Shown piece by piece: positions 1,733-4,545 of a stretch of DNA of 64,000 nt (the first letter of the stretch is position 1; each line of letters begins with the position of its first letter). The stretch is taken from the NCBI GenBank assembly GCA_012026835.1, contig VEPN01000013.1, positions 1 to 64,000 on the forward strand, in the 5' to 3' direction. Source of the DNA: Candidatus Methanoperedens sp. (GTDB lineage Archaea > Halobacteriota > Methanosarcinia > Methanosarcinales > Methanoperedenaceae). The notes under the pieces were generated by a model. That model searched no databases, had not been told where the DNA came from, and worked only from the letters and a program-made list of their open reading frames with translations. The translations under genes were made by a program, and so were the position numbers.

Positions 1733-2029
1733 TCACTTATAAGCATCGCCTCTATGCTGGACTGAAGTTATCCTGACTTTCTTAGTTTCATTGTCAACAG
1801 AATAAAGAACCCTATACTTGCCAATCCTTAATCGATATGTATTACTTGGGTATCCTTCCATGGGTTTAACATCAAAACCAGATCTATGTCTAATAGGATT
1901 CTTCTCAAATTCATCAAGCAATCTTAGAAATTTCTCGACTACGTACTTCGGGACTTTTTCTAAATCTTTTTCAACTCTCTCATCTACCAGAACTTCATAA
2001 GGAGTTGTGTCTTTGCTCAACAATCTCAA
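1733..2029 (-). CDS. RelE/ParE-type toxin
   Basis: A 98-residue protein of the RelE/ParE superfamily. Typical features are [20 protein letters not shown] (helical N-terminus), then [20 protein letters not shown], in which the [11 protein letters not shown] strand pair is the family hallmark, and a basic C-terminus with HRGDAY. Many members are ribosome-dependent mRNA nucleases; which target this one has is not visible. Its ATG overlaps the stop of the upstream antitoxin by four bases, so the pair is translationally coupled. Confidence 0.85.
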
Positions 2030-2253
2030 CTTCCACTATAAGCTCTTTTTATTCGAGATTTAAATTCTTCTTTTGGAATCCCTTTAAAATCAGCAAGGCG
2101 GCGATAATGCTCTCTAATATGTTCCGCGCTTATATCCTCGATCGATACTTTATTCATTAGCATATTTAGAACATCATCAAAAGTCCAGTCACCAAATTTA
2201 TAGTCTGATAATCTATCTTTCGTTTTCTCGCTAATTGTTATGGTTGTTGGCAT
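2026..2253 (-). CDS. Antitoxin partner of the RelE-type toxin
   Basis: A 75-residue protein starting [19 protein letters not shown], the usual opening of archaeal VapB/RHH-like antitoxins, followed by a [11 protein letters not shown] helix and a charged tail. The N-terminal strand normally binds operator DNA as a dimer and the tail wraps the toxin. It is first in a two-gene operon with the toxin at 1733-2029, overlapping it by four bases, and is probably autoregulatory. Confidence 0.8.
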
Positions 2254-2436: not shown

Positions 2437-3263
2437 GTGCCTCGAAACATAAGAGAGAAAGAACAAACAACAGGACATAAACAAAAATGTAATGGCACCA
2501 TGTCCGCCAAGGGTGAAAATCCCGCCATGCGGAGCTGCTTCCGCATGAAGAGAAGGGAAGTGCAGTATTGTGAGATGCTGTGCGGAGTTCCCGTATCGGC
2601 AACCACAGCCCGAAACAGAAGGTGAACCATAAGTGGCCTTGACAGGATGCGATGTTCCGTCACTAAACAGAAGCTCAAGCAGAATAATGACTGTCGGGGT
2701 GATCATGGTCGGGATGGCTGAAAATGCTCTCTTATGCGACCGAGGGAGGTCTCATAACGTCCTCCTTGAAATTGGAAACAAACCCTACAAGTTTCTGGGT
2801 CACTGAAGCCAGTTGAAAGGGTAAAGGTAGCCGAGGTATAACCTTTTGGGAAAGCCGGAGCAATGCGTTATGAGATGTCGGAAGAACCCATAGTAGCGAT
2901 AAAGGACAGGCTGATGATATACAGAACCTGTGCCGCAGGGTGCAGGGGGCGACTGTATGGAAGGATAAACCTGTTCTAGCAAAGGGGTTCTGATCTGGAT
3001 AGAGATGTGGTTGAAAGCACAATAACAACAATCGGATAGCAACATACCAGAAAGGTAGCCGCCGAAAAGAGTAAGCGAAAACGCCATCTGGCAAAGATCG
3101 TGAAGATTGTCGAACAACTGCTGGAAGCCAAATCCGGCGGATAAATCGCTTTGATATATCCACTTCCTGATATGGGATATGCCAGATGAAAGCCGAATAC
3201 CGGAAATCGGTCTGTTCGGTTTGATGAGGAGGGGATGGCTGAAAAGCCATTCCTTTACTCTAC
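2437..3263 (+). mobile_element. ORF-less group II intron
   Basis: The 3' end carries a clear domain V at 3189-3222: the AGC triad with G-U pair, an 8-bp lower stem AAGCCGAA/TTCGGTTT, a two-base CT bulge and a GAAA-type loop. Domain VI follows (3225-3260): a GGGATGGCT/AGCCATTCC stem capped by GAAA, a bulged A at 3257 as branch point, and an intron end at TAC 3263, seven bases later. The 5' end is less sure; GTGCC at 2437 is the best match to GUGYG. CGTCAC at 2658-2663 can pair with GTGACG just upstream of the 5' site as EBS1-IBS1. No reverse transcriptase is present; reading frames inside are short and broken. Mobility would need a maturase in trans. Length about 827 nt. Confidence 0.8.
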
Positions 3264-3289
3264 TGAAGGCGATAGGAGTTCTCATGCTC
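3264..3289 (+). repeat. Palindromic dispersed repeat, copy B, right arm
   Basis: Directly follows the intron 3' end. TGAAGGCGATAGGAGTTCTC ending in ATGCTC matches 365-391 of copy A with a few substitutions. This is what fixes the intron 3' boundary by comparison with the uninterrupted copy. Confidence 0.65.
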
Positions 3290-4263: not shown

Positions 4264-4499
4264 ATTTCTTGAACCTCCGTGACGGGGCTGAAACCCTTTT
4301 ACCAATTCCACATAGAGCCCGTTTTGTATATTTTCAGTATTGTATTATGAGCTATTGCAGTTCCTTTTATAATAAACTAATGTCACCGATAAAATCATAT
4401 TTATCAATAGATTCCAGATATATCCAGACATTAAATAGCATCCATGCGCCTAAAAGCAAGAGTTGAAACAAAGTATCTGGTAGAAATGTAAAACCATGA

Positions 4500-4545
4500 G
4501 CATCCTCTCTGATGCCCCGTTCCGCGGAACGGGGTCGTTGACTTA
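4500..4545 (+). repeat. Palindromic dispersed repeat, copy C
   Basis: GAGCATCCTCTCTGATGCC is followed by a perfect 20-bp palindrome, CCCCGTTCCGCGGAACGGGG (4517-4536), then TCG and TTGAC. The left half matches copy B nearly base for base up to GATGCC; the stem sequence differs but keeps its pairing, which points to conservation of structure. The right arm seen in copies A and B is absent here. The remainder of 4264-4593 shows no gene. Confidence 0.6.

Follow-up and report, generated by a model that had tools for sequence, protein, structure and literature searches.

How does a group II intron that encodes no protein come to lie inside a palindromic repeat of an archaeal genome? The question is raised by 827 nt within a 64,000-nt window (the whole stretch of DNA analysed; contig VEPN01000013.1, positions 1 to 64,000), taken from a 3.3-Mb archaeal genome whose congeners are the methane-oxidising Candidatus Methanoperedens. 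Our favoured answer, to which we give a probability of about 0.83, is that a deletion in domain IV deprived a IIC-type intron of its RT/maturase, and that the element is one of a non-autonomous lineage present in at least six Methanoperedens species. This lineage would find its targets by a hairpin together with EBS1–IBS1 pairing, spread in trans and exchange its 5′ part. An earlier, sequence-only reading had recognised the intron and its place in the repeat; comparison with relatives adds the probable deletion origin, the genus-wide ORF-less lineage, the mosaicism of its 5′ and 3′ parts, the fit between EBS1 and IBS1, and the absence of a cognate RT from the genome.

Identity, fold and lost reading frame

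The sequence-only reading was to be abandoned if Rfam found no group II domains V/VI, or if all genomic copies ended at other positions. Rfam returned RF00029 above threshold for domains V and VI (3188-3263, forward strand; 46.3 bits, gathering score 40, E 6.4e-6), and the copies end where the window copy does. About 45 copies aligned to the 5′ end GTGCC (2437) and about 25 to the 3′ end CTCTRC (3263). As the aligned copies agree at both ends and diverge outside them, the coordinates of the intron are exact. Nearly all copies begin with GTGCC and a few with variants such as TTGCC, GTGTC or GTGCT, and the 3′ ends read CTCTAC, CTCTGC or CTCTAG. Of 34 genomes in the family, 25 had matches to the intron, and the window's own genome had them at nine more places, the other intron copies there being shortened or internally deleted; there was no DNA match in plasmid and phage collections.

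The intron forms a six-domain fold with a closed domain I (Table 1). The consensus for domains I to IV (RNAalifold, 18 relatives) has 159 pairs, 70 of them with compensatory changes. In 24 copies, the helices proposed for domains V and VI were paired in 98.5% of cells, compared to 88.6% after shuffling, and 11 of 28 pairs had changed on both sides. The catalytic AGC triad (3191-3193), the two-base bulge (3212-3213) and the bulged A (3257, position -7) are those of a group II intron. All three had been noted before, the last as a branch point seven bases from the 3′ end, as had a GAAA-type loop of domain V; this loop is more exactly a 5-nt GAAAU-type and not a plain GNRA tetraloop. The 5′ end, GUGCC, deviates from the consensus GUGYG at the fifth base in the whole family, while the 3′ end, AC, follows the consensus AY. 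The long frames on the opposite strand, previously dismissed as false genes, are indeed not genes, since in relatives they are interrupted by stops and changes of frame, and Pfam had no match for them.

Table 1. Features of the intron and its target repeat in the window (all on the forward strand)
Feature	Position	Detail
Uninterrupted repeat copy	317-391	
Palindromic repeat, 5′ half (insertion target)	2386-2434	Covariance model R1, 51.5 bits
First target hairpin	2391-2405	GCATC-ttcct-GATGC
Second target hairpin	2406-2425	CTTCGGAT-TTCA-ATCCGAGG; 11 nt ahead of insertion point; stem covaries in relatives
IBS1 (5′ exon)	2430-2435	GTGACG; pairing scan
ORF-less group IIC-type intron	2437-3263	GTGCC...CTCTAC, 827 nt; Rfam and alignment of copies
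Domain I	2438-2747	Consensus fold, compensatory changes
EBS1 (domain I hairpin loop)	2658-2663	CGTCAC; pairing scan, consensus fold
Domain II	2750-2875	Consensus fold; mosaic crossover in or just past it
Domain III	2878-2998	Consensus fold
Short domain IV hairpin replacing the ORF	3139-3161	23 nt; common to the ORF-less lineage
Domain V	3190-3222	AGC triad and two-base bulge; overlaps what is left of the ORF's final codons
Domain VI	3226-3260	Bulged A at 3257; helix pairing across copies
Repeat, 3′ half after the intron	3264-3289	
Third copy of repeat core, without intron	4495-4542	

Full-length relatives of the intron are about 2.0 kb long, and their domain IV carries an ORF of 394-416 aa with RT and maturase domains only (RVT_1 and GIIM), which resembles the class C type of RT without an endonuclease. 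The PDB chains closest to this IEP are 7uim (267 bits) and GsI-IIC 6ar1 (250 bits), both group IIC proteins, with LtrA at 155. In a scan of GTDB genomes, all matches of at least 58% identity were in Methanoperedens-type archaea, and the next were bacterial, at 44% or less. The window copy lacks this ORF. As expected from the earlier reading it encodes no maturase, and retains a C-terminal stub, around 3166-3222, whose codons, with their stop, overlap domain V. We infer that it lost the RT/maturase gene by deletion in domain IV. Introns L048, L049, L050, L051 and L063, each from a further species, have a short domain IV of this kind; with the window copy, they make up six ORF-less introns of six species that share one 3′ half and the short domain IV hairpin.

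A matching RT had been suggested as something to look for in the same genome. No intact gene of the family was found there, and the search yielded a C-terminal fragment (contig C104) and an unrelated intron RT (contig C1, 34% identity); the genome is rated 99.8% complete, though the assembly may be incomplete. The RT on C1 was considered as a helper and is unlikely to be one, as it is part of a different intron and 34% identical. That intron (about 520-2712 of C1) is an RT-coding group II intron of another lineage and interrupts a transposase-like gene. A full-length family member was likewise not found in two other genomes with ORF-less copies, G028 and G022. In one review (PMC4424553), C.te.I1 is the only known bacterial case of an ORF-less intron whose genome has no related IEP. 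Separately, G028 encodes a 932-aa fusion of a group II-like RT, TPR repeats, a TOTE-type archaeo-eukaryotic primase and a TOTE Mu-Gam-like C-terminus (contig C48, 48-2846, reverse strand; L195), and G006 has a similar RT frame of 955 aa.

The palindromic repeat and recognition of targets

The intron had been described as lying directly behind a stem-loop, inside a repeat whose uninterrupted form is present at 317-391. This was borne out by the repeat model and by a 28-nt 3′ half shared between 364-391 and 3262-3289, with 0 expected by chance. The uninterrupted copy reads GTGAC/TGAAG and the interrupted copy GTGACGC/intron/TGAAG; because the two differ at the junction, the pre-insertion site of the window intron was probably GTGACGCTGAAG. 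The repeat is dispersed and about 50 nt long, and changes in its stem are compensated in 7/7 pairs. Scoring the best 150 first-look candidates per genome with a covariance model gave at least 2-25 matches in each of 31/31 genomes of the genus; the window's own genome has at least 20, three of them inside the window. Rfam returned nothing credible for it. Two loci of this genome (L231 on C42 and L232 on C83) have an identical AATATACATTTTTAAGAAAATTGCGTATAAT after the repeat, and some repeats are therefore part of a longer unit.

Insertion 3′ of a hairpin, a class C trait, holds for most of the family. At 45 sites, the 40 nt preceding the insertion point folded more stably than shuffled sequence (mean z -2.0, against -0.1 in the control), with a clear hairpin wanting at some sites (L048, L056, L063, L065, L071 and L078). 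Together with the IEP of the relatives, this supports the earlier suggestion of class C insertion next to a stem-loop. The target is at most sites the palindromic repeat with its GTGAC tail and at some domain VI of another intron, and not a terminator (T-tract) or attC, which are the customary though not the sole conceivable targets of class C introns. L049, L050 and L051 each sit within a few nt behind another family copy. L053 and L054 abut or closely trail a different group II intron (RF02012), and at L053 an RF00029 match also ends one base before. These five are arranged head-to-tail and not nested, and the window copy stands alone, so that none is a twintron. L058, L059 and L060, from three species, are inserted into targets of a second kind, CAAGGGGTA-hairpin-GATGAATCGGC/TACCCCTTG; the intron divides this palindrome, which may represent one end of an insertion element.

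When all intron positions were scanned against all exon registers, a single combination stood out: intron 222-228 (window 2658-2664) with exon -8 to -2. The intron segment contains EBS1 CGUCAC, which in the window copy pairs with IBS1 GUGACG. Over 20 copies, 5.85/7 positions were paired in the true combinations compared to 3.23/7 in mismatched ones, and 0/100,000 permutations were as good; the permutations ignore the relatedness of copies, a counterweight to which is that example pairs differ at most positions (L065, CAACGCAG/CUGCGUUG; L056, CAACACGG/CCGUGUUG; L059 and L060, CCGAUUCA/UGAAUCGG; L061, CCAUUUCC/GGAAGUGG). Exon position -1 (C) is conserved, yet unpaired with EBS1. One scan showed no signal for EBS2, and EBS1–IBS1 pairing without EBS2–IBS2 is the class C pattern; a scan for EBS3 gave weak candidates only. 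A GATGTC segment near 2870 had been a candidate EBS1 and was dropped, the scan having placed EBS1 elsewhere. Target choice may depend on a DNA or RNA hairpin plus 6-8 bp of EBS1–IBS1 pairing; in the window copy, as the covariation shows, EBS1 CGUCAC fits the GTGACG tail of the dispersed repeat.

Incongruent histories of the 5′ and 3′ parts

In a tree of the whole intron RNA the six ORF-less copies form one clade (98/97). For intron positions 1-330, the window copy grouped with the full-length intron L052 (99/99), and the AU test rejected the ORF-less clade (p-AU 1.4e-9, lnL difference 108). From position 331 onward the ORF-less clade was restored (96/94), and grouping of the window copy with L052 was rejected (p-AU 8e-56). 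These AU p-values are optimistic, as the tested groups were picked after viewing the trees. A PHI-type test, which is independent of the choice of groups, lay far outside its permutations whether all copies were included (z -14.6) or just those of full length (z -14.1). Sliding identity over aligned columns between the window copy and L048, an ORF-less intron of another species, was 66-74% over 151-300 and 94-99% over 451-750. A breakpoint test put the crossover at about intron 340-452 (window 2776-2888). In L051, a patch at about 150-260 that includes EBS1 is 96-97% identical to L002 and L062, and its flanks are near 65-70%.

The incongruent trees show that a 5′ segment with EBS1 has been exchanged between family members, perhaps by template switching during cDNA synthesis or by DNA recombination. 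In retrohoming, cDNA synthesis begins at the 3′ end of the intron; template switching would therefore keep the ORF-less 3′ module and swap the 5′ module. It could account for most mosaic cases, and for the internal patch in L051 gene conversion would fit at least as well. A more general proposal, which we advance tentatively and at somewhat less than even odds, is that the ORF-less 3′ module (about domains II to VI) has repeatedly been joined to different EBS1-bearing domain I modules, gaining new targets by recombination, perhaps by template switching of a class C RT.

Among 31 genomes, no empty orthologous site with both window flanks was found; homologues of the left flank (a ParE-type toxin region) exist without a shared repeat site after them, and the right flank is unique. 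The contig end, which is the start of the window, is 2.4 kb from the intron, and the genomes compared are mostly metagenome assemblies, so a misassembly inside the window copy could have gone unnoticed by synteny. The left flank includes a toxin gene of the ParE family (1733-2029), upstream of which is probably an antitoxin gene (the region spans 1733-2250, reverse strand); several congeners have homologous DNA in different surroundings.

Could the mosaic itself have been created by assembly, from short reads of several intron copies joined together? Multi-copy introns break metagenome assemblies, and many matches in other genomes are at contig ends. We nevertheless regard this as improbable. 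The window segments share just 74-84% identity with the other copies found in this genome, the L051 patch is internal with both its flanks different, the signal persists among full-length introns alone, and mosaics are also present in large contigs (L054, in a 721-kb ANME-2d contig, and L058, in METP1). Far less credible still is the notion that stem-loop repeat and intron move together as a single composite element, in which the repeat would not serve as target. A repeat half does precede most intron copies, but the repeat occurs in all 31 genomes, most copies of it that were read are without the intron, and other intron copies follow quite different hairpins, including domain VI of unrelated introns, with EBS1 changed to match.

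The alternative that deserves most weight, although we still think it unlikely, is that the intron is a dead relic that has lost splicing and whose copies are inherited by descent only. The absence of a cognate RT and the truncated or internally deleted state of the other copies in the genome would both agree with this. In the window copy, however, domains I to VI, the branch A and EBS1 are intact, EBS1 fits the exon, and the last ~380 nt are 94-99% identical to the copy of another species, which suggests recent spread.

Spread and relation to known introns

We therefore favour a non-autonomous IIC-type lineage, whose splicing and mobility are predicted from sequence comparison. Its copies would spread in trans, a full-length relative supplying the protein for their reverse splicing and reverse transcription, a mode of mobility that has been demonstrated for Thermosynechococcus introns (PMC2882425). 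Because the cognate protein is absent from the genome, the window copy probably arrived either on incoming DNA or at a time when the genome still had a helper, and it has probably lost its mobility since.

The window intron is most likely a member of group IIC. It deviates in its GUGCC start, in the lack of a terminator target among the sequences seen and in having no match to the Rfam D1-D4 families, of which bacterial class C relatives match RF02005. The AGC triad is no deviation, since those relatives also have AGC. GsI-IIC, E. rectale IIC and B.h.I1 share with the Methanoperedens family the endonuclease-less RT type of its full-length members, insertion 3′ of a hairpin and EBS1–IBS1 pairing. 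Their targets are terminators or attC (PMC4424553), whereas the Methanoperedens family uses a palindromic repeat without a T-tract.

The ORF-less TeI3 introns of Thermosynechococcus elongatus resemble this lineage: they have a single ORF deletion in domain IV and a short domain IV, have spread as a lineage without the ORF, fall into families that differ in EBS, and insert into other introns. They differ in being bacterial group IIB introns, with driver IEPs kept in the genome and no hairpin target, and their families are clean clades for which mosaicism was not reported (PMC2882425). C.te.I1 of Clostridium tetani is likewise ORF-less in a genome without a related IEP, but has another structure and 5′ splice site and lies between coding exons (PMC4424553). 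The nested introns of Methanosarcina acetivorans (Dai and Zimmerly 2003, as summarised in PMC4424553) are also archaeal, with ORF-less and RT-coding copies that home into introns; in that summary they have IEP lineages CL, D and E and are inserted inside introns, in contrast to the Methanoperedens copies directly behind another intron's 3′ end.

In the literature searched, which was short of subscription papers, no paper dealt with group II introns in Methanoperedens or with ribozyme mosaicism of this sort. Earlier accounts describe no expansion of class C introns in archaea (PMC8919778) and call ORF-less introns rare (PMC4424553). The new points are thus the archaeal expansion, with many copies in one genus, the ORF-less lineage that crosses species, and the exchange of the EBS1 segment, a concrete and testable route for ribozymes to change targets, for which the family supplies a natural set of matched EBS1–IBS1 pairs.
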